Assembly (NCBI GenBank): GCA_030248065.1
Contig: JASAMV010005084.1
Coordinates: forward strand, 41,193-105,192
Length of the DNA stretch: 64,000 nucleotides
Direction of reading: 5' to 3'
Source: Rhynchonema sp. JSB1_4
Taxonomy: Eukaryota; Nematoda; Chromadorea; Monhysterida; Xyalidae
The notes beneath the pieces are model-generated. The model saw only the letters and a program-made list of their open reading frames with translations. It was not told the origin of the DNA and ran no database searches. The first letter of the stretch is position 1. Each line of letters opens with the position of its first letter. The position numbers and the translations under genes were made by a program. Positions 1-64,000 of this stretch are shown here, piece after piece.

Positions 1-6464
<6,464 letters not shown>

Positions 6465-50933: not shown

Positions 50934-53900
50934 TTAATCCTTCTTCTTTGGTGGCGGAGGTGAACCTGGAAAGCATAAAGAAATGCACCTTTGGCATTTG
51001 TGATCACGAAAAAATGCAAGTGACCAAACGTTTTCCCAGCAGAAAGCCTCGTTTGAGTCCACAGACGTTTGGCTTGGTGGAACCATGCTTTCGGGTTTTC
51101 GAACAATTTCGCTGATCGTCGGACTCCGTCATGTTCGGCTTTGTCGTTGTTTGTGGTTTCTGGAAGGATATGCCAGGTTATCACCGGGCACGAATATCTC
51201 ATCAATTGAGTGTCTAAAGAACCACGTAAACAAGCATGCACCCACGTTTACTTTCGCTGAACCTTTTGCTGGTGCGCCAGTTTCGCGACACTTTTCGGTG
51301 TCAGAATAATCTGACCAGTCCGACGACGATCCAGTCGTTGTTGACGTAGCTGGAAAATGGGGTCCATTTTTTCAATTTTTAACCATTAGAACGTGCACCT
51401 TTCAATTTTTCATTATATCGAAGACTTCACCTTTCTGGGATGGCCATAATAGCCTAAAGCAGTGCAGGGATGTGGTTGGGGGGGGGGGTATGGGGGGGGG
51501 GGTTTTACCCCCCCCCCCCCAACTGCTAGGTAGCTTTCTTGCTCCGAAACCCATACCCCCCCCCAAACTGGCTAGCTAGCTTTCTTGCTCCGGTCATCAA
51601 GTAAGAAAAGTGTTGATTTTAGTGCCAAAATGACCATTTTATGGGCCAAAATGGTCAAATTCGTTCAAATTTTCTCACACGTGCACAAAAATACGCATTT
51701 TAAGGCTTATTTTAGCATAATTTCGACCAAATTTTATACCCCTGTTTTTGACTTCTGGACCAATACCCCCCCAAATCGGGGTACCCGGCTAGCTAGCTAG
51801 CTTTCTTGTGCCGGACCCCTCCAGCTAGCTAGCTTTCTTGCTCGGACCAACTACATCACTGAAGCAGTGGTGTCGTTGGGAGGGAAGGGGGGGGGGTTAC
51901 CCCCCCCTAGTATCCGGTATCCGGTATCTTGATTTTTTCACCCAGGGGTATCCGGTATCCTGACTTTTTGTCCAAGGGTATCCTGCCCTAAAAATTTTCC
52001 GAAAACGGTGAAAATCGCCCATTTTTACCTCCAAAATGCTCAACATCGCTTGCTAGCGCAAGCATAACCCCCAAAATGACCATTTTTTGCGCTTTCAGCA
52101 CCGATTTTGCTCAATTTTCCTCTTAAAAAATTGACTTTTTTGAACAACCCCCCCCCCTGGGTATCCGAGATTTTTTATTTTAGGGAGCAACCCCCCCCCC
52201 CTGGTATCCGAGATTTTTCATTTTGGGTATCCGGTATCCGAAAATTTTGGATTTTGGGTATCCGGTATCCTGACTTTTTGATTTCCCAACGACACCACTG
52301 GCCTAAAGCTTAGGTGTTTTACTTGCAAGCGCCAAGTTCTCCTTTCGGTATGCATCTTTCCTTGGACGCGTTTCCTTGGACCAAGAAAGACAGGAAACAC
52401 TATACCTGTACCTAGGGGAGCCCCCACTCCCCCCAGCTGCACCAGTGTAGGGGAGGTTACTTAGAGGCAGTGTAGTTCCTGGTCCGGAGGGGGAACAGGC
52501 GGTGCCCCCTTTTTTCGGAGGGGGAACAGACGTACCCACCTGGGGCTGGGGGAAGGACCCCGAAGGGGGGTGCAGATCAGCCATAAAAGGCTTTACGTCA
52601 TCATATACTCAACCACAGACGTTGTACATAAGGTGTCTTATACAAGAACTTGACTTTACGACCCCCAAGCGGGGAATTCCAAGTTGGGGGGCTGTATTTT
52701 TGGGGGGCTCTATTTTTTCACTGACCCCTTTTAGGGGGGCTGTATTTTTGGGGGGCTCTATTTTAGGGAATACGGTACCCGGAGGGGGAACAGTGGGGCA
52801 GGCGTACCATGGAGGGGGAACAGACGTACCCGAGGGGGCAGTGCTGTGGCTACTTTTGCGGGGCGGGTAGGGTACATAGGTGGAAAAAATCGGGGCGGGT
52901 AGGGGGCAGAGGTCGCAATCGGGCCGGCCCGACGTCGGGCCGGGCCGGGCCGGGCCGCGATTTTGGGCGTTTGGCTCGGGCCGGGCCGGGCCGGAGATTT
53001 GGAGGGTCGGGCCGGGCCGGGCCGGGCACCCCGGCCCGAAGCTTCTGAAGTGACTTATTTTACTGAAAAAAGTAGGGTTTTTTTTGTCAAAAACACTAAA
53101 ATTTCTGACGGATTCAGCAAGTAAGTGATCAGTATTGTCCAGTGGTGTGGCTACCCAGGTGTGCAATCAACTTACTGTACCACCAGAAAGGCCTGCAATC
53201 AACCTACCTACTGTACCGGCCGAGCTAGGGGGGAACAAAAATTTTTGTGTCTAAATTTAGATGCAAATGCACTCTAAAACCCTCATTTCGCGCGATTTTT
53301 CGATTATTTGGAGTGAAAAATTTCGATTTTATACCATTTTGGGCCAAAAATAGCAACCTACTGTACCAGCCGGGGGCGGCGACCTACCTACTGTACCAGG
53401 ATGGCGCGTCATCGACCTTACCTACCTACTGTACCTAGGAGGGACCCCCAGCCACACCATCGGTATTGTCTATCTGGCGACTTTTTTATGGAAAACAATG
53501 AATTTTCAACCAAAAAAATAGATTCAAAAATCGCAAAAATTATGACAAAAATTGGGTTAAAATCTGAGCCAAAAATTCGGGCCGGGCCGGGCCGGGCCGG
53601 AGATTTGGGGGTTCGGGCCGGGCCGGGCCGGAGATTTGGGGGTACGGGTCGGGCCGGGCCGGGCCGGGCCGGGCCGGAGATTTGGGGGCTCGGGCCGGGC
53701 CGGGCCGGCCAAACCCGGCCCGATTGCGACCTCTGGTAGGGGGTAGTGTACCTGGGATTTTGGGGGGGGGGGGGGGCCGGGGGGGGGGGGGGGGGGGGGG
53801 GATCGGGCGGGGCGGGTAGGGTACAACACAAGTTTTTTCGGGTGCCTGTTTTTATGTACTAAAAAGTGCATATATCGCGCGCAGCGCGAGATTTTTTGCA

Positions 53901-54287
53901 CTTTTTAGGGTTTTCGGTCGAAATTTGGGCATTTTTGACCGAAAAATGGGCATTTTGGGGGTAAAAATCGGGGCGGGTCGGGTACCAGGGCGGGGCGGGT
54001 CGGGGGGTAGGGTACAAGAGCGGGGCGGGTAGGGGGGTAGCGTACCAGGCCGGGGCGGGTAGGGTACCATTGGGGGGGACCCCCCACCCCCCCCCCCCCC
54101 CCAGCCACAGCACTGCGAGGGGGACCCCCTCCCCCCAGGAACTACACTGCTTAGGGGGGTCTATTCCGGGGGGGGGGGGGCTATTCTATTTCTATAAAAC
54201 AGAACACGAACCGTCAGACCAGTCCTCATCGCTATCATCATCTTTGGCATCAGCAATAGCATCGCGTGTCGGATACGAAGTTGCCAT
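50934..54287 (-). CDS. 64-aa minigene paralogous to the N-terminus of gene B
   Basis: Three phase-consistent exons: 54287-54212 (MATSYPTRDAIADAK, ending DEDWSD), 51349-51263 (TSTTTGSSSDWSDYSDTE) and 50965-50934 (SPPPPKKKD then stop). Both introns are phase 1 with acceptable GT-AG sites. Exons 1 and 2 are recognisably related to exons 1 and 2 of the neighbouring TTC3-like gene (MAT start, DDG/A junction, TTTGSSS[ED]W motif), including the position and phase of the first intron. It is therefore a truncated tandem copy that kept an open frame and gained or retained a short Pro/Lys tail. No domain is recognisable: the protein is acidic, Ser/Asp-rich and likely disordered. It could be a decaying pseudogene or a functional microprotein. 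Intron 1 (2.9 kb) is mostly nested hAT elements. Confidence 0.5.
51460..52300. mobile_element. hAT-type element, CAGTGGTGTCGTTGGGA ends, interrupted at its first bases
   Basis: Flanked by exact GCCTAAAG duplications (51452-51459, 52301-52308). After its first five bases (CAGTG) the element is interrupted by another hAT MITE. Iterated GGTATCCGGTATCC words lie at both ends. Confidence 0.9.
51465..51861. mobile_element. hAT-type MITE, CAGTGATGTAGTTGG family (copy 3, inverted)
   Basis: Left CAGGGATGTGGTTGG, right CCAACTACATCACTG; exact 8-bp duplication AAGCAGTG, made of flank plus the first five bases of the host element. Confidence 0.92.
52907..53735. mobile_element. Nested hAT-type element, CAGAGGTCGCAATCGGG ends
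   Basis: Ends CAGAGGTCGCAATCGGG and CCCGATTGCGACCTCTG; exact duplication GTAGGGGG. Iterated GGGCCGGGCCGGAGATTTGG words. Confidence 0.9.
53140..53462. mobile_element. Innermost nested hAT-type MITE, CAGTGGTGTGGCT ends
   Basis: Left CAGTGGTGTGGCTACCC; right AGCCACACCATCG (terminal CACTG altered to ATCG-like). Exact duplication GTATTGTC. Iterated CCTACTGTACC words. Confidence 0.87.
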
Positions 54288-55255
54288 TTTTCGTAATAAT
54301 TCACAGAGCTGGTTGCTTTCAAAATACAGGTGTCTCGCTGGCTCGGCCACTCACCAATAAAAAATTAATCTTCACACGCGTGCGTGAGTACCGTAAAAAC
54401 CTAAACACAGTCTCGAGCCCCGCCGGAGTTTTGGTCAGTCGGGCTGGGGCAGGGCCCAACGGCGGCCGAGGTTACCCGGCCGGCTCGATCCTAACCTCTG
54501 GTGCCTGCTGGGGTGGACCAAATCAAATGAGTCAAGGGAACTGATCCCAACCTGCTGATTGTTGGCTTGATCGGGTGCACCTCGCTTTGCTCCGGCTTTG
54601 TTGCTGGCGACAAAACCAGTGAAAAATTGAAACACCCAAAAATTAAAAACCAATGAAAGAGAAAAATGCGCGAAAGTTGAAGCGCTCTGCCTATGACAAA
54701 AAGCAACATTGTTTTGATTCTCGAAACGAAGTTGGGGTTAAGCTGTGCTCAACGCGCCACATGCAATTAACCAAGATGAGCCTTTCGCTGAATTAACTTC
54801 AGATTTCAGTTTGTCTCAGTCACGAACTTGAGTGCGTCAGGGGCAGCCCTGAGCCTACCAAAGTTAGTATTTAAACGTATATGCAGGTGTGCTTTGAGGG
54901 TACGGGGTGCATATGCATGACGCGTGGTGGGGTCGCGGTTTCAACCCAAGGTCTAATACGGCGGCCTAGGTCTCGTCAGTTAGACGGCCAGGGCTGGCCC
55001 CCAAAACCTGACTCTCAGTCACATTCACAGAAAATTCAATCCAAGCAAAGAGCTTCACGCGATGACCCATAACAGAAGCACATGCGGGCATGTGATAAGT
55101 CAAGCGGAGAATGCCGTTTTGTTTTTATTTTTTGAGAGCCACTGCTCTGATGCAGAGTCCGCATTCAGCGTTCACACAAGTCAACGTTTTTATCTCTGGG
55201 CTTTGGATATGATAAATCCGTAAATCATCAAGATCTGCATCGTTTGCCACCCCCA
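54288..55255. other. Intergenic; possible tRNA-derived SINE at about 54880-55080
   Basis: A minus-strand open stretch at about 54610-54545 could be a further leader exon of the minigene. GCGGTTTCAACCCAAGG near 54935 resembles a pol III B box, but no A box or target duplication was confirmed. Confidence 0.25.
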
Positions 55256-55677
55256 ATGAATACCGTAATGCTGGTGTTGCTGCTGCTATTGGGCACCGCT
55301 GTTTGTGTGCCATTCAGGCGAGACGATTTGGAGGATTCCGACGTTGGTTAAAAAAATTCTGTTGCTAGTTTGGATTTGACTTTGACCAATAGACATTTAA
55401 ATGAATTCAAGCGGCCGAAAATTTACGCCGCGCATACTTTTTTCAGTTGGTTCTGGTAAAGCGTCAGGCAGATGATATGGATTCCGACGTTGAGGATTCC
55501 CATTCCGGTGATGTGAAACAGCGGCCAATGGTGGTTCTGCCGATCTTCTTCACGCAACATTTCTATGACAAAGAAGAAGACGACGATGATGACGAAGACG
55601 ATTCATCGCAATCCCATCACGTGCATCATTTCCACCCCCATCCGCCCATGTTCCAACCACACCCCTATTATGGCTGA
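55256..55677 (+). CDS. Secreted acidic/His-rich propeptide, cluster gene 1
   Basis: Two exons. 55256-55342 encodes a 29-residue segment with a hydrophobic signal peptide (LVLLLLLGTAVCV, then RRDD); 55447-55677 encodes 76 residues. The phase-0 junction is GAC/GTTGGT to TTTTTCAG. Exon 2 has a dibasic site (LVKRQADD), then the core MVVLPIFFTQHF shared with the next gene, a run of Asp/Glu, and a His/Pro-rich tail (HHVHHFHPHPPMFQPHPYYG). The His and Asp content suggests metal binding, which is inference. The leader motif AATCATCAAGA lies at 55223. A hAT element inserted so that its 8-bp duplication contains the stop codon, leaving the frame intact. No known family recognised. Confidence 0.75.
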
Positions 55678-55681
55678 AGAG

Positions 55682-56356
55682 CAGGGTTGGGCAAAAAAAA
55701 AATTTTTTTTTTAAAAAAAGGTTTTTGAAAAAATTTTTTTAAAAAAAAAAATTTTTTTTTTAAAAATTTTCGGGGGAACAAAATGTTCTAAAACGTCCAA
55801 AAATGGCCCTTTTGGGGGTTATTTTTTGTCATTTTTTCTCAAGGGTCGAAAAATTTTCTTCACAAGATCACCTTTGGGGCATGTATTTGGTACCTAAGAT
55901 ACCCCAAATGATGTTATTATACCTTCCCTTGGTACATGGGACACAGTATGCATGTGCCTACATGGTACTTCGATGTCATACCCCATCAGGTCGGTCATAT
56001 ACGACTGATTCAGCTGCCCGACAAGTATTTCTGCAGCTTATATTCTCAATTCTGTGTGGTTTATGAGTGAATCTTGCTTATTCGGCCACAAACTGTTGTG
56101 TCCGATACCACAGAGCAGCAATCATCGGTCCATATCAAGCACAGACTGTTGGATCGTACCGAAATGACGTAAACACCCTTGATAAGTGATGCAAACCAAG
56201 TCACAAAAGTGACTTGTCAATTAAAGTTGCATTTTTCGCGATTTTGCGCGTTTTTTAGGCAAATTTGGTAAAATTTCCCCGAATCTCAGACTTTTTAAAA
56301 AAAAATTTTTTTTTTAAAAAAAACTTGTTTAAAAAAAATTTTTTTTTCCAACCCTG
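55682..56356. mobile_element. hAT-type element, CAGGGTTGGGCAAAAA ends
   Basis: Left CAGGGTTGGGCAAAAA, right TTTTTCCAACCCTG; exact 8-bp duplication CTGAAGAG. A/T homopolymers lie inside each end. It begins four bases after the stop codon of secreted cluster gene 1. Confidence 0.9.
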
Positions 56357-56803
56357 CTGAAGAGAGATTACCTGGTTTGACATCAGATCAATTTTTATGC
56401 GCCGTGTGATCTTTTGTGAAAAGAGTATCCCCATTGGTGTTGGAGTTCATGGTTTTTGTTTTTGTGACCAAGCAAAATGTGAACATTGTATGGGTATATT
56501 AGAATCAGAATGTTGAATTATCCATAAGCTTGAATGAGTAGGTAAGCATTTCTGTGCATTGTGATTTTGGGAAATAGAACTGCGTACTTTTGGATGCTCA
56601 CACCTGCCATCAGTTCCTGCATCGCTTCTTTCTTTTGATATGACTCGAAGATATTTTACAGGCACACCACGAGTACAAGATAAAGCTTGCCAGAAAAAAA
56701 CAGAAACTTTGAAATTTTATTATTATTGTGTTTGCACTCGAAAGTCTAACGTTTGAATACCGGCTAAGCATCACAAAATCATCAACATCACGATCGTACC
56801 AAA

Positions 56804-57088
56804 ATGAATACCGTAACCCTGATGTTGCTACTATTGGCCACCGTCATTTGTGTGGCGCTCAACCAAGACGATTTCGATGATTCCGAAGTAAGTCTCATAG
56901 ATTGTGAGTCAAGATGAACAAATGTTGTGATAGATGAAAGTTACACAGCACAACTTTGCCGGTGCTTTCAGTCGAATCGGGTAAAGCGAAAGGACGATTA
57001 CGATGATGGCCAACAGTCAACAATGGTGGTTCTGCCGCTTTTCTTCACGCAACATTTTCATAAAAGCGACGATGACGAAAAAACTTAA
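56804..57088 (+). CDS. Secreted short acidic propeptide, cluster gene 2
   Basis: Two exons, 56804-56887 (28 codons, signal peptide LMLLLLATVICVALNQDD) and 56972-57088 (38 codons plus stop). The phase-0 intron has GTAAGT and TTTCAG sites. Exon 2 has SNRVKRKDD, a dibasic cleavage site, then MVVLPLFFTQHF, the same core as the previous gene, and a short acidic end (KSDDDEKT). It lacks the long Asp run and His-rich tail of its neighbour. The total is 66 residues. The leader motif AATCATCAACA is 27 nt before the ATG. It is a paralogue of cluster gene 1. Function unknown; likely a processed secreted peptide. Confidence 0.75.
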
Positions 57089-57897
57089 GGAAACCTCAAT
57101 TCGACTCCAATTTTACCGTTATGATTCATATAGTTTGACAACAGATCGTGTTTATAATACTACGTGAAGCATTTCGTGAAAAAAAAACGTGACTATTATC
57201 CGTATGTAGAGGGCACTGTGTGGATTGGTTGTTGTTTTGATATTGCACAAGAGTGTGAACATTGCGTTTGTGTTATTTTTATTCGTGCTGCGTTGAAGAG
57301 TAAAACATTTATGATGAAGTTATGCATTGCCGGCAATCATGTTTGACTGCTTTTGATATACACTATACTGTAGACCGAAAGATAGAGCGACAAACTCGGT
57401 GATACGATCGTACCGGACGTGCTTTGCCTTGGTCACGTGACTGTTATGAAGACGCCCCTAACTTCGTCCGGCGTAAAAGACGTTCCCCGACCGAAATGAA
57501 TAACCTTTAATATGGACGAAAATAGTGCCTCCAGTAAATTGCTTAATGCAAATGCAAGAATCACGCTTCATCAAAGGTTCACACATCCGGTTCTATCTGA
57601 TGATCACCAAGTTTGGTATTGCTCATGGGGTTTTTCCACCTCAAAATATTCAAAATTTGGTGGCCGCAGAGTAGGCTCACGCACCACGAAGGGATTAAGC
57701 ACACAGTGGTACTGATAGCAAACCATTCATTCCGCATTCATACTAGGTCATGTAACAAAGGACAGGACACTGTCAGGACCATAAAAGCAGGCAGAAGCGT
57801 CAGCTTTTGATCACTGTTTTTACACTCAGAAGCGACGCTTGGCCTTGTAGTTCGATATCCGAGTTCACAAAATCATCAAGATCACAATCGTTCCAAA
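57089..57897. other. Spacer between cluster genes 2 and 3
   Basis: No exon supported; holds the presumed promoter of gene 3 near its right end. Confidence 0.4.
57780..57787 (+). promoter_or_regulatory. TATA-like box upstream of cluster gene 3
   Basis: CATAAAAG lies 110 nt before the ATG of the third secreted-peptide gene and is followed by GC-richer sequence that could hold the transcription start. No equivalent box was recognised for the other cluster genes, so this is a weak call. Confidence 0.25.
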
Positions 57898-58339
57898 ATG
57901 ACTACCGCAACCCTGGTGTTGCTGCTGTTGGCCACCGCCGTTTGCGTTGTGCGCAGTCAAGACGATTTGGGTGCTGTCGATGTTTGTTTGTTTTTGAACG
58001 ATTTCAATTTTGTCACAGTGATTTCTCTGCCCAACAAAAATTCACAAAATTTCTTCAGATGGACCTGGACAAGCGTCAGACCGATGTGGATTTCGATGAC
58101 GTAAGATGACATATTGCACCTTTTTGGAACTTTTTGGCAAGTCCATGTTTTGTCCTTTGGTTCCAGGTCGATGAACTGACAAAGCGAAACCACTATGGGG
58201 ATGAGGAGCTCGGCAGAGGCAAGGTACTGATTGGACTGCGCATGTGTTACCATGCTTTCAAAGTCGTGTAACACTGCACTCCTGCACGGTCACTGTTGAA
58301 ACATATCGTTTTTTGTTGCAGCGTAATTTCAAGAAATGA
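57898..58339 (+). CDS. Secreted multi-dibasic peptide precursor, cluster gene 3
   Basis: Four exons: 57898-57981, 58059-58100, 58167-58223 and 58322-58339, all joined in phase 0, giving 66 residues. The signal peptide is LVLLLLATAVCVV, ending SQDD. Three basic sites follow: DKR before QTDVDFDD, TKR before NHYGDEELGR, and GKR before a terminal NFKK. The Gly-Lys-Arg is the classic precursor signal for C-terminal amidation, so a possible product is NHYGDEELGR-amide. Gln after the first KR could form pyroglutamate. The amidation triplet is split by intron 3. The leader motif AATCATCAAGA is 27 nt upstream. The layout is neuropeptide-like, but the cluster context equally allows a gland secretion. 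No known family recognised. Confidence 0.72.
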
Positions 58340-59269
58340 AGACGAAGATGATGCTGTTGAGGCGCGTATTTGATATCCGGATATTTTTTTTTAAAATACT
58401 TGGGATGTTTTGTGATAAGTGATTAGTACAAACTTTGTTTTCATTTTTGTAAGCGACATGTGACAATGCATTGCATTGAATTCCTTTCGTCAGCATAAAA
58501 ATTTGTCACCCGTAAGTTCCACCTATCTTTCCAAGCGCGTGTCAGGTTTTCCAGCGCGAAAAATACAGTCCGTTTTAGGCTTGGTTGCGTGTTTCCTTCG
58601 ATTCAAGCTGAGGCTTAAAGTCAGTTTGTACTCTGACTGCCCGGCAGTAGCAGTGAGAAATTTGTGGCTGCCCGTTCGGTCAGCTCATTACCAGACCAAG
58701 AACAGCAGGCAGCGGTCAATGGACAGATCAGAGCAGGCAATCACCACAAGCAATAACTGCCTTGCCGGGCACTTCTGCGTGGTAATGACTTCTCCGAATT
58801 TTGATTTCTACTTCCCGGAAGTCAGAAGTATAAATCGACCTTTAGGCGCAGGCCTAAGCCTGAGCCTAAAAATAAGCCTAAACCTAATTCCGTACCTGTT
58901 TAGGTTGTTGTCCAGATTGTCGCTTTTGTTTCAATGACTGCTTCTTCAATGTTTTGTCGTCTTTGTCTTGTCCTTTACGTCAGCCGCCTATGGCGTCGAA
59001 TTGGTGGGAAATAATCAGTATAGCACACGTCCACGCTTCAGTGGAAAACTGGTTGAAAAATTGTAGAATTAGAAAAGCTTATTTGAATTCTGGTTCTATT
59101 TTGTTTTCGTTGTAGAGCCGCGAGACACAAATAATCGTTTATTTCGGTTCCGGTAACCTGAATTCTCTAGCATTTGTCATTTTCAATTGCAAAGCTAACG
59201 TTCACACTTGGACTTCGAGTTGAATATCAGAATTGCCATGTGAATCATCAAGACCACCATCATATCGCA
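58340..59269. other. Spacer between cluster genes 3 and 4
   Basis: Contains the second copy of the dispersed repeat (about 58665-58770) and a CCTAA-type tract (58841-58895, GGCCTAAGCCTGAGCCTAAA-like). No exon supported. Confidence 0.4.
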
Positions 59270-62010
59270 ATGGGTACCGTAACCGTGGTGTTTGTGCTGT
59301 TGACCGCCTTCGTTTGTGTTGTGCTCAATCAGGACGACATGGATTTGGACGTTTGTTCCGTTGAGAAGTGCGATTTGTAGTGTTCACGAAAGTCATGTTA
59401 TGACGTTCTCACACGCAAACCTACACATGTTGTGATCTTAGCCCTAATTTCAGCAATCAGATCCGGAGAAGCGACAGACCGACGTGGACTTGAAAGATGT
59501 AAACAGTTTCGCAGTTTCATTGACTTCGCTTGTACAGACATTTTTAAGCATGTGCTTCCTCCCTGCAGACCGGTGAACTGGCAAAGCGAAGCTTCTCTCC
59601 GGAAACGTTCGAGGACTTTGAGAGAGTCCCGGTGAGTATTACATATGATTAGTACCTGATTGTGGTATAAGTTTTACTGCTCCTGCTAAATACTGCGTCT
59701 GAGAAAACTACTGGCTTACCACATGATCATGCTAATCAATTCAGCGCAAAGCCAGAGGAAGGAAGAAGCTTGGCAGGAAGACAAAACCTAGAAGGAAACA
59801 GAGGAAGAAAATAACGAAGGGAATTCGAAAGAAAAAGGTGAAAAATGTGAAGAATGTTAAGCAACGAAGAAACAGGCAAAAGAAAAATGGGAAAAATAGG
59901 CTGGGCAAAAACACGAAGAAAGTGAAACAACAGAGGAATGAAAAGAAGATGGTGACGAATAAAGGCAAGAAGAAGAAGCCGCAACAAAAGAAGAACAAGA
60001 AGGAAATGAAGATAAATGGCAAGAGGAGGAAGAAGCCACAACAAAAGAATAACAAGAAGAAGATGAAAATAAGTGACAAGAAGAAGAAGCCACAACAAAA
60101 GAGTAAACAGAAGAAGATGAAAACAAATGGCAAGAAGAAGAAGCCACAACAAATGAATAAAACAAAGAAGGTAACGATGAGTAGCAAGAAGAAAGCACAA
60201 CAAAAGAATAAAAAGAAAAAGAAGAAGACACTAAATGGCAAGAAGGAGAAGAAACAGAAAAGTAAGAAGAAGAATAAGCTTGAAACGAAGAAGAAACAGA
60301 AAAAGATGAAAGACAAGAAAAAGAAACGGAAGAATATGGAAAGTGATCCCGGAGGACAAGGAGTTGGCGCTGGGGCAGCTCTAGCCGGAGCCGGAATTGG
60401 TGCAGGGGCTGCTCTGGGCGGAGCCGGAATTGGCGCAGGGGCTGCTCTGGGCGGAGCCGGAATTGGCGCAGGCGCAGCTCTGGGCGGGGCCGGGCTTGGC
60501 AAGGGAGAAGCTGGCCCCGGCGGAGGCGGAGCTCTCGAGGCCCGAGGATCGGTGGGGCTGGCCCCGGCGGAGGCGGAGGTTTCGGTGGAGCTGGCCCCGG
60601 CGGAGGCGGAGGTTTCGGTGGGGCTGGCCCCGGCGGAGGCGGAGGTTTCGGTGGAGCTGGCCCCGGCGGAGGCGGAGGTTTCGGTGGAGCTGGTCCCGGC
60701 GGAGGCGGAGGTTCGAGCGCCCCGGCGGAGGCGGAGGTTTCGGTGGCTCAGGCGTGGGCGCAGCAGCCGCACAAGGGATGGAAGCACCGGGACAATGGAG
60801 AGGAGGTGCTTGCCAAGGAGGACAATGCCAAATAGCAGATATGAGTCCAGGGGCAGACATCGGCCAAGATCAAGGTGGTTCGGGACGAACACCGGGAAAC
60901 GCCGGGCAAGGTTTACTTTTTGGAGCTTCAAATCGGATATCATCCATAATATGAATTTACGGCCTTTCGTGTGACATAAAACACCCAACACAAACAGGTC
61001 AACAAGGAGGAGACGACTTCGGTGGAGGAACGGAATCTGAAGAAGAGGACAGTTCCGCTGAGGAAGAAGAAGAAGAAGATTCCCGAGGAGCATCACAAAA
61101 AGACGGGCAAGGTTTGCTCTTTGGGGCTTCTAATTTGGGGTTTCTTCTGTGGCATAAAGCATACAACACAAACAGATCATCAAGAATCAGATGACATCGG
61201 TGGACGAAAAGACCCCGAAAGGCAAGAATCTTTTGCTGGAGAAAAAGGAGGAAATCACGCAGGAGCATCTGAGGATGACAGCCAAGGTCTACATTTCCCA
61301 GGGCTTTTATTCCTCGTTCATAAGTAACGTTAAAGCTCTTAGTGTGTTGCTCGTAAGTGCACAAGTATTGAAGAGCGTGAACAAAACAAAACGCACACAC
61401 AGGTTCTGAGAACTTGGACGGTCAACAAAAAGTAGGCGATTTCCGAGGAGGAGGAGGAATTGGTGCAAAGGAACATTTCACACAAGGCGTAGAAAAACAA
61501 GACTGGGGAGGTGGACCGGCGGAAGACTTCGGGCCAGGTTTGCTATCGTTGGAGTTCTTATCTCGAATTCATAAGTCTTTAGCGCTTATCGTCTGTTGCT
61601 CATAATTATATCAACGTTGATGACTGTTTATAAAACATAGAGCGCACACAGGTTCTGAGAAAGTGGGCGCGCAACAGAAAGGAGGCGACTTCCAAGGAGA
61701 AGGAGACATTGGAGCGAAAGAAAATTCCACACAAGACGAAGAAAGAAAAGAATGGGGAGGGGCACCGGCGGAAGAAAGAAAAGACTGGGGAGGGGGACCG
61801 GCGGAAGAAAGAAAAGACGGGGGAGGGGGACCGGCCGAAGACTTCCAGCAACATTCAAAGGAATTTGAAGGAGAACCAGAAGAAGAATTCAAGCAGAGAG
61901 ACGAACACAAAAGTGAAGGTACCCAATGGGAACACCAAGACGGACAAGGAATTGGAGAGACAGATGAGCAATGGAAGGGAAAACTGGACACGGAAGCGGC
62001 AATGGCTTAG
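59270..62010 (+). CDS. Large secreted Lys-block/Gly-rich/acidic modular protein, cluster gene 4
   Basis: Exons: 59270-59350 (signal peptide), 59454-59498 (QSDPEKRQTDVDLKD), 59569-59631 (ELAKRSFSPETFEDFERVP), 59745-60910, 60998-61111, 61176-61286, 61403-61537 and 61652-62010 (stop TAG). Exon 4 starts with about 200 residues dominated by Lys, with recurring KKKKPQQ and NGKKKK words, then GAGIGAGAALGG repeats, then GPGGGGGFGGA repeats. Exons 5-8 are phase-1 symmetric and encode Gly/Glu/Asp-rich modules with GGDF-like words and repeated (K)(D/E)WGGGPAE units. Within the Gly-rich part the readable frame shifts twice, so one continuous protein is not obtained as sequenced. Indels in GC-rich repeats or real decay could explain it. 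The domain order recalls silk-, glue- or matrix-type structural proteins. No homologue recognised. Confidence 0.68.
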
Positions 62011-62760
62011 CACTGATGTTAAAGCGATTCAGGACCAAATGAAAAGTGATATTATGACTTGTTACATGTCGCATTTTTACATGACGTACGATGTGTTTTA
62101 TATCAGTTGAAATGTGTTTTTTTTGATTGTCCATAAACCGCCCAATGGAAGCGAAAGCGAAATAACCGCGTTGAAATTTGAGTGCAGACGATAAACAGAT
62201 CTAGAAAATTATGTAGGTAACGGATTTTTGAACGCCTATCCGCCCGCCTCCATGGAAACTAGGGGGAAAACTGGGTATTATTCAGGCAGAGGATAATACA
62301 TGGACAGATCTGGAAAATCTGTATGATGAGATTTTGGCTGTTGATTCGGCCACCCGAAGACGAAAGAACGGGGTTAAAGACTGTATTACGAAAGAATCGT
62401 TATTGTGAGAGTGAATATTTTGCGAAAAACGTGAGGGCTTGGTATCTTTTAATCCGGGATATGCATTGGCCTATAAGGAGCACAAACACAGATCAGGGAG
62501 CACCGAATACCATAATATCGAACAAGACCACCGGTGCGTTCTTGAGTGCTAATGTACTGAAACTTCAAAATGAAAAAACGCACTTTTGCGTTTGTTATTT
62601 GGCGTTCGAATGTACACACGGATAATTTCAATTTGGTCATCTGAATTCAGTCGCATTTCATTATTTTACTTTTCCGTTTGCAAAAACAACGTTCACGCTT
62701 GGACTTCGAATTGAATATCAGAATTCCCATGTGAATCATCAAGACCACCATTATATCGCT
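62011..62760. other. Spacer between cluster genes 4 and 5
   Basis: No exon supported. The last 70 bp are closely similar to the leader of gene 4, showing the duplication boundary lies upstream of the ATG. Confidence 0.45.
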
Positions 62761-64000
62761 ATGGGTACCGTAACCGTGGTGTTTGTGCTGTTGACCACCT
62801 TCGTTTGTGTGGTGCTCAATCAGGACGACGTGGATTTAGACGTTTGTTCCGTTGAGAAGTGCGATTTGTAGTGTTCACGAAAGTCATGTTATGACGTTCT
62901 CACACGCATGTTGCGACCTTTCCCTCAATTACTTCAGACTGATTTGGAAAAACGACAGGCCGACATGGACTTCGATAGCGTGAGATATCAAGTGTTGCTT
63001 TCTTTTTTATTCCGGATTTTAAACACTTATGAGAGTCTTTCCTTTCTACAGACCGCTGACCTGGCAAAGCAAAATTACTCTTTGGCTACGAAAGAAGACT
63101 TTGATAGAGTTAGGGTGAGTAATTCAATCAGTAACTATATTATGAGTGCAATCTTCATCATTCAAATGCGCAGTTATAATCGTCACTTTAAGGTTCTTAC
63201 ATGCTCATTGTTTTAGCGAGCTAGACCCAGGGCAAAGAAGAAGGCAAAGAAACCGAGGAAAAAGCGAAAAAATAGGAAGAATTTCAAAAGGACGCAGCCG
63301 AAGAAAAAGAAAAGCAGGAACCAGAAGAAAATTGGAAAAAATGTGACGAGTGTTAAAAGACAGAAAACCAAGGGAAAGAAGGGCAAGGGTAGGAAGAACA
63401 GCAAGAAGATGAAAGTCAAACAAATGGATACGAAAAAACAGAATGGAAAACATCTGAAGCAGAAAGCGAAAAGTGTGAAAGGTGTTGGTGGGAAGAAAAA
63501 CAAAAGACAGAAGGATAAAAAGAAGAACAGATTAAAGGATAAGAAAGGGTTGATGGATAAAAACAAGAAGAAAAAGAACTTAAAGAGCTCGAAGAACAAA
63601 GGACTGAAGGAGAAGAAGAAGAGAGGAAAGAGTAAGAACAGGCCGATGAATCGCAACAAAAAGAAAACCAAAGGAAAGAACATCAAGAAAAACAAGAAAA
63701 ATATGAAAGATGTAAAAGGGAAAGGGAAGCAAAAGAAGAAGGGAAAGCAAATAAAAAAAAGAAGTAAATGGCAAGAAGAAGAAGCCACAAAAAAGAAGAA
63801 GAAGAATATGCTTGACACGAAGACAAAGAAAGCAGAAAAAGCTGAAAGACAAAGAAAAAAAACAGAAGAAGTCGAAAAAAAAGCCAATTGCGAAGAACTA
63901 GGAGTTGGCGCAGGGGCTGCTCTTTGGATGGGCGGGGCCGGGCTTGGGGCAGGGGCGCTGTGGGCGGGGCCGGCCTTGGGGCAGGCGCAGCTCTTGGCGG
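62761..64000 (+). CDS. Large secreted Lys-block protein, cluster gene 5 (3' truncated by window)
   Basis: Exons 62761-62841, 62938-62979 and 63052-63114, with exon 4 from 63217 open to the right edge; all junctions are phase 0. The signal exon differs from gene 4 by very few residues, and the 5' leader and the start of intron 1 are nearly identical. The propeptide has TDLEKRQADMDFDS. The second basic site of gene 4 (AKR) reads AKQ here. Exon 4 begins RARPRAKKKAKK and remains Lys-rich for about 220 residues, then turns to Gly/Ala-rich (GVGAGAAL, GGAGLGAG). After the A8 run near 63750 the reading departs from the NGKKKKPQ word seen in gene 4, and one base appears missing near 63957, so indels are likely here too. 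Confidence 0.68.

Follow-up and report, generated by a model that had tools for sequence, protein, structure and literature searches.

A tandem array of five genes behind a common signal exon

The stretch of DNA analysed here (the window) covers the final 64 kb of contig C3124, which is 105192 bp long and belongs to a 204 Mb assembly. Five genes lie head to tail at 55256-64000, all on the plus strand, and gene 5 is truncated by the end of the contig, where the window also stops. In models with predicted GT-AG splicing, genes 1 and 2 have two exons each and genes 3, 4 and 5 have four each, and the introns between exons 1 to 4 are all phase 0. Each gene opens with a signal exon of 81-87 nt that ends in phase 0 at a GT, exon 2 following after an AG; the end of the signal exon is marked by RRDD in gene 1 and by QDD in genes 2-5. 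A preliminary description had claimed a five-gene array with this shared exon, its phase-0 intron and a QDD/RDD ending, all of which the gene models bear out.

It had also placed a leader motif 27 nt before the ATG (33 nt in gene 1), and the motif was found in all five genes, starting 33 nt 5' of the ATG in gene 1 and 27 nt in genes 2-5. At up to one mismatch, AATCATCAASANC has six matches in the window against 1.01 expected, a count that none of 100 shuffles reached, and five of the six are exact, namely the leaders of genes 1-5. The motif is real and specific within the window; loci beyond it have in common with the motif just a shorter core, TCATCA, mostly as TCATCAAG.

Gene 1 comprises the leader AATCATCAAGA (55223-55233), a signal exon (55256-55342) that ends RRDDLEDSD in phase 0, and exon 2 (55447-55677), which runs LVLVKRQ... 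MVVLPIFFTQHF to an acidic, His-rich end and a TGA stop. Gene 2 has the leader AATCATCAACA (56777-56787), a signal exon (56804-56887) and a shorter exon 2 (56972-57088; SNRVKRK... MVVLPLFFTQHF, then a stop). The leader of gene 3, again AATCATCAAGA (57871-57881), precedes a signal exon (57898-57981), an acidic propeptide exon with KRQ (58059-58100), a second propeptide exon with TKRN that ends RGK (58167-58223; junction RGK|R) and a minimal terminal exon, RNFKK followed by a stop (58322-58339). In gene 4 the leader (59243-59253) and signal exon (59270-59350) are followed by propeptide exons with KRQ (59454-59498) and with the ending RVP (59569-59631; junction RVP|R), and then by a long exon 4 (59745-60910) in which a lysine-rich block, 44% K across 202 residues, gives way to Gly/Ala-rich 33-nt repeats. 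The glycine-rich repeat changes frame at ~60530 and ~60720, as judged by eye from the reading frames. Downstream, three modelled acidic tail exons, phase 1 at both ends (60998-61111, 61176-61286 and 61403-61537), and a fourth of acidic/Gly repeats with a TAG stop (61652-62010) have pI values of 4.1-4.5, and the third is 63% identical to the start of the fourth. Gene 5 repeats the plan with its leader (62734-62744), signal exon (62761-62841), propeptide exons with KRQ (62938-62979) and with the ending RVR (63052-63114; junction RVR|R), and an exon 4 that is lysine-rich, then Gly-rich, up to the contig end (63217-64000).

The KRQ or KRK that had been reported after the first intron in four genes is in fact present in all five (KRQ in genes 1, 3, 4 and 5; KRK in gene 2). 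Relatedness of the front ends is also evident in searches. Against a small local set, in which chance matches start at about E 0.14, exon 1 of gene 4 finds gene 1 (E 0.011), gene 2 (2e-7), gene 3 (2e-5) and gene 5 (5e-14); against the whole 204 Mb genome it finds gene 5 (3e-9) and gene 2 (0.015), genes 1 and 3 being absent from the matches at E up to 10, and a consensus-like query composed for the search recovers all five. The further claim that the mature parts are unrelated stands in part. Genes 1 and 2 have MVVLP(I/L)FFTQHF in common (E 5e-7), genes 3, 4 and 5 have exons 1-3 and a terminal exon starting with R in common, and for the most part the picture of unrelated products gives way to that of a single variable terminal exon, usually rich in lysine.

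Family members across the genome

Whole-genome searches with exon 1 recovered at least 17 loci in which this exon is intact: five in the window and at least 12 on six other contigs (three on C3826, one on C344, two on C1216, four on C162 and one each on C648 and C235). The distribution is scattered and partly tandem. The C344 locus is a near-copy of C3826e (97.3% identity), and C3826 carries two additional, degenerate exon-1 copies. Both C3826 and C1216 are internally palindromic, with main inverted repeats of 0.8-1.7 kb at 94-98% identity, which may be an assembly artefact. Exon 1 of C648 matches the family at the DNA level with E 2e-7, using a query composed from family sequence.

C162 holds a separate tandem array of short, intact members. 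Among the three of its four copies that were compared, identity is 83-91% in the signal exon, 72-79% in the introns and 56-69% in the terminal exon, a pattern consistent with a conserved front and a product that changes quickly. Other parts are spread unevenly: gene 4 and C1216 have a repeated acidic exon type in common, weakly across contigs (E 0.94 in the genome search), and 12 of the 13 final residues of C3826c and C1216a are identical. The MVVLP(I/L)FFTQHF product was found nowhere in the genome besides genes 1-2 with the query used at E up to 1, and the terminal exon of C3826e had no genomic match outside C3826e and its C344 near-copy.

A modular exon plan with a cleavage motif split by an intron

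Thirteen models on six contigs share one layout: the signal exon comes first, between one and three short exons follow, and the terminal exon is in most cases lysine-rich; the set leaves out C1216b (terminal exon not found), genes 1-2 (which have no such exon) and the C344 near-copy. There is one middle exon in C162, C648, C235 and C3826e (three exons in total), two in genes 3-5 and three in C3826a, C3826c and C1216a (five in total). Exon 1 of the models begins with Met and leads into a core rich in leucine and valine, the N-terminal hydrophobic signal having been judged by eye on each, and propeptides are acidic (pI 4.1-4.8) in 12 of the 13, C3826e being neutral. Because exon borders are phase 0 and exon sizes are multiples of three, an added exon keeps the frame. 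The earlier suggestion of cassette reuse thereby takes a more precise form: the length of every signal and propeptide exon is divisible by three, their borders are phase 0, the propeptide exons number one, two or three, and the last of them in most cases carries the beginning of a furin site at its end.

That site spans the last intron. R-X-(K/R)-R is present at the last junction of 10 of the 13 models and R-X-X-R at 11, with arginine at both P4 and P1 expected about 0.005 times per model in composition shuffles, these counts coming from members related by ancestry and so not from independent trials. The junctions found are RVKR, RGKR, RTKR, RVRR, RPKR, RSKR, RAKR, RVPR and RSKG. Gene 4 has RVPR only, and RSKG takes the place of a furin site in C162-4 and C235, which are close relatives of each other. 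Some members carry additional KR sites in their middle exons. We regard the architecture of signal exon, acidic exons and junction motif as highly probable.

Coding evidence

Purine-only sequence has few stops, so open-frame length is weak evidence of coding in lysine-rich exons; the reverse strand of gene 4 is itself open for 462 codons. An alternative interpretation is that the loci are purine-rich repeats that do not code, or pseudogenes, and that the signal-like frames in front of them arose by chance, in line with the openness of purine-only sequence on either strand, the frame changes in gene 4 and the two degenerate exon-1 copies on C3826. We consider this very improbable because GT-AG phase-0 junctions are common to all 13 models on six contigs and because frame-keeping gaps are commoner in exons. 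Gap lengths were multiples of three in 15 of 25 coding and 2 of 15 non-coding gaps over five comparisons, three of which involve C3826 sequence, with counts in lysine-rich sequence resting on ambiguous alignment. Between C3826e and its C344 near-copy there are no coding gaps and nine non-coding ones, and the inverted copy of C1216a has a 19-nt gap inside coding sequence.

Six genes were compared pairwise over the signal exon and two propeptide exons, leaving out the additional propeptide exon of C3826/C1216; pS exceeded pN in 14 of the 15 pairs, which are not independent of one another, the exception being genes 3 and 4 (pS 0.28, pN 0.32). Since lysine codons align arbitrarily, dN/dS is unusable for the C162 terminal exon, and for the same reason no positive selection on that exon is shown among the C162 copies.

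Length, charge and helical moment of the terminal products

The terminal exon of genes 4 and 5 starts with R and is lysine-rich, and in gene 3 it is reduced to RNFKK, which would leave NFKK after the predicted cut. Products count 19 residues after the R in C648 and 41-53 in C162, gene 5 has at least 226 lysine-rich residues, and the terminal exon of C3826c has 265. Charge is segregated in the long members: in C3826c a basic block (94 K/R vs 8 D/E) precedes an acidic one (46 D/E vs 6 K/R), and the same order is seen in C1216a (80 K/R vs 6 D/E, then 48 D/E vs 5 K/R). Genes 1-2 encode a short acidic product with MVVLP(I/L)FFTQHF and no terminal cationic exon, the product of gene 1 being His/Asp-rich without cysteine. 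The terminal exon of C3826e is of another character, with a helical-looking stretch, an acidic tail and an acidic product overall.

Short members carry a net charge of +9 to +20. Their mean helical moments exceed 95% of shuffles in three of five C648 and C162 members and fall below that level in two (z of 2.5 for C648, 2.1 for C162-4, 1.8 for C162-3, 1.3 for C162-2 and 0.8 for C162-1); the C3826e domain reaches 3.3, and the long members C1216a and gene 4 give 0.5 and -0.4. From sequence, then, short products of 19-53 residues resemble cationic peptides of the linear type, with a modest amphipathic bias, and the products of C1216a and gene 4, without such a bias, are better seen as block polyelectrolytes.

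It is conceivable, though we think it unlikely, that the family serves structure only, its members making up an adhesive, slime or coat secreted by glands (caudal, pharyngeal or epidermal ones, for example), in which basic and acidic blocks would form a complex coacervate and the short members would be minor or degenerate, without an antimicrobial role. The sharp segregation of basic and acidic blocks, the Gly/Ala repeats and the repeated acidic tail exons of long members fit such a material. However, the short intact members form an array of their own on C162, three of the four have the same furin junction, and there is some amphipathic bias among them; one literature search, judged by titles and abstracts, gave no paper on nematode caudal-gland adhesive proteins.

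The animal is a nematode

The genome contains at least 42 exon-level matches to major sperm protein (MSP) at E up to 0.001, at 43-58% identity over residues 28-80, and the mitochondrial contig C2636 uses invertebrate code 5 (AGA/AGG=Ser, AAA=Lys, ATA=Met, TGA=Trp). Together, AGR=Ser in this code and the multigene set of MSP identify the animal as a nematode. Readings of the locus as encoding mollusc mantle or shell matrix proteins, and with them the mantle setting in the preliminary description, were dropped on these grounds, as were readings as glass-sponge silica proteins and cnidarian nematocyst proteins.

Apart from an inverted nad5 piece at the contig end, those mitochondrial protein genes that were recognised share a single strand, and GC skew is 0.21. 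In the available text of one source, this skew falls in the range of Chromadorea and the one-strand pattern is given for Chromadorea (PMC9115964); longidorid mitochondria, by contrast, are described in part of another as coding on both strands (PMC5288807). A genome search for the SL1 leader gave two matches at three mismatches, equal to a backwards control, and thus an ordinary SL1-bearing rhabditid is excluded, provided that the assembly is complete. The missing SL1 and the MSP identity of 43-58% presumably point away from plant-parasitic tylenchids as well, and the worm probably belongs outside the usual model and plant-parasite nematode groups.

These traits bear on the suggestion that the products are secreted effectors whose lysine tracts, resembling nuclear-localisation signals, act inside a host cell. 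A secretion-type exon 1 with dense lysine tracts would suit that role, but nothing marks the worm as a parasite, its presumed distance from tylenchids argues against it and the acidic tails would mask the basic tract, so we judge it improbable. The cyst-nematode dorsal-gland box, ATGCCA, occurs on the gene strand of three of 10 upstream stretches, all close copies, and gives no support.

A candidate secretory cassette

We lean, if slightly, towards a nematode precursor family built of phase-0 exon modules from which a furin-type enzyme would release polycations, the short ones of a defence type and the long ones charged secretion polymers. The signal exon would target the precursor to the endoplasmic reticulum (ER), and the acidic exons may balance the charge of the polycation up to the point at which a furin-type convertase cleaves the R-X-(K/R)-R that spans the last intron and frees the terminal product; where middle exons carry KR sites, the propeptide would be chopped further. 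For short members, what is released would be a lysine-rich linear peptide with some amphipathic character, resembling host-defence or cytolytic peptides most closely. The terminal exon of long members (genes 4 and 5, C3826a, C3826c and C1216a) would have grown into poly-lysine followed by an acidic or glycine-rich block, and charge may condense the blocks into a gel, coat or glue. Genes 1-2 would be side branches with a short acidic/histidine product, and C3826e a mixed variant of the terminal exon.

Of these functional assignments, a defence-type role for short members is tentative, and a gel or adhesive role for long ones is put forward just as guardedly; gland-specific expression, as proposed in the preliminary description, would likewise be a prediction. 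We caution that the most inclusive form of this reading, in which one furin-processed cassette was stretched from short helical cationic peptides to block polyelectrolytes and the family spans defence peptides and self-condensing material, is rather doubtful.

The family offers a traceable case of a secreted product whose length goes from a handful of residues to over 250 behind a single front end for secretion and processing. A protease site split by an intron suggests a route by which product exons can be swapped or grown with processing kept.

Comparison with known systems

The preliminary description recognised no described family, and searches agree. No Pfam match exceeded the curated cut-off among 14 precursors (genes 1-5, with gene 4 read up to its first frame change and gene 5 truncated, C3826a, C3826e, C1216a, the four C162 members, C648 and C235; C3826c and C1216b were left out). 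For the C162-1 precursor the Protein Data Bank gave no match better than E 0.94, and a search of 5.8 billion predicted proteins, among which nematodes are covered to an uncertain extent, gave the precursors of C3826e, C162-3 and gene 1 no relative at E up to 1.

Conotoxin-type and frog-skin-type precursors combine conserved signal/propeptide exons with a fast-changing mature exon, and cnidarian nematocyst proteins place different products behind a common propart ending in KR (Lys-Arg). Gene 1 scored 14.5 bits against a conotoxin cut-off of 25.1 bits in Pfam and has no cysteine framework. Perisilin and glassin, the glass-sponge silica proteins, are like the products here in being secreted and His-rich or charged, as in His/Asp-rich gene 1; perisilin, as far as the consulted section describes it, has a 186-residue domain with 12 Cys (PMC10772126), whereas the window, C3826 and C1216 models have no cysteine-rich domain and belong to another phylum.

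Nematode antimicrobial peptides are likewise secreted nematode prepropeptides, among which cecropins are amphipathic helices. Our precursors differ in being without a cysteine framework and without a Pfam match over the cut-off, and the cecropin model was not among matches at E up to 1 (eight precursors), 10 (C3826e) or 0.01 (five more). Cecropins are reported, in the portions available, as restricted to Ascaridoidea (PMC10506718, PMC10414684). The same portions describe antimicrobial surveys that relied on homology to five known groups or on a length filter, and a novel-peptide survey that dropped proteins >150 aa and peptides of at least 100 aa (PMC10506718, PMC10414684). Under such a filter the long members of a lysine-rich family would be missed, and the family described here would add to a phylum in which surveys of this kind could overlook them.

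Among the nearest likenesses are the precursors of linear cytolytic or antimicrobial peptides in spider venom, such as latarcins, which have a signal peptide, a short acidic propeptide and a lysine-rich linear peptide (PMC8290080), and with which the family shares related fronts, varied products and multiple copies. In the spider precursors the propeptide closes with a processing quadruplet motif whose final residue is Arg and which has one or more Glu at -2 to -4 (PMC8290080), whereas the junctions here read R-X-K-R in place of that motif; long basic-acidic products and additional propeptide exons are also outside the spider features described in the part of that source consulted (PMC8290080). 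On sequence grounds, the precursor design resembles that of spider linear peptides, but the protease motif differs.

Other contigs of the assembly

Two of the other contigs that carry members of the secreted lysine-rich precursor family, C3826 (stretches L008 and L009) and C1216 (L010 and L013), form imperfect palindromes whose main inverted repeats span 0.8-1.7 kb at 94-98% identity, which may reflect either an inverted duplication of the cluster or folding of the assembly. C3826 also contains an additional short, secreted-looking open frame on the plus strand (L008, 221-475), which begins MSGTLKLTVVMIILGEV and, by eye, bears no evident likeness to the signal/propeptide cassette of the family.

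On the mitochondrial contig C2636 (L026 and L027), the gene order read by eye was nad5-cox3-cox1-nad3-atp6-cob-nad6-nad4L-nad4-nad1-cox2, with an inverted repeat of nad5 at one end; neither nad2 nor atp8 was recognised in the same reading, and searches of this contig for rRNA with Rfam and for tRNA with ARAGORN in bacterial mode returned no matches.

Other features of the window

Exons of an ABCC-type transporter lie on the minus strand at window positions 718-6046, as indicated by sequence matches and position: the segment at 2350-2817 matched ABCC4 best, and the top match of 718-1254 was an ABC transporter C family member 2; 5309-6046, for which a Pfam scan gave no match, is assigned to this gene only by its position. 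Upstream of the array, a GC-rich stretch at 52001-54200 (GC 0.537 at 52001-54000) contains tandem repeats with a unit of 30-34 bp, and long runs of G or C are present at 54000-54200.

Within the array, terminal inverted repeats and a target duplication delimit an AT-rich element of 675 bp (55682-56356; 55674-56364 with both duplications). The inverted repeats are perfect over 9 bp (CAGGGTTGG), and the 8-bp duplication, CTGAAGAG, flanks the element at 55674-55681 and 56357-56364. The element lies directly 3' of the gene 1 coding sequence, since the left duplication contains the stop codon of that gene. These features are typical of a hAT-type MITE.
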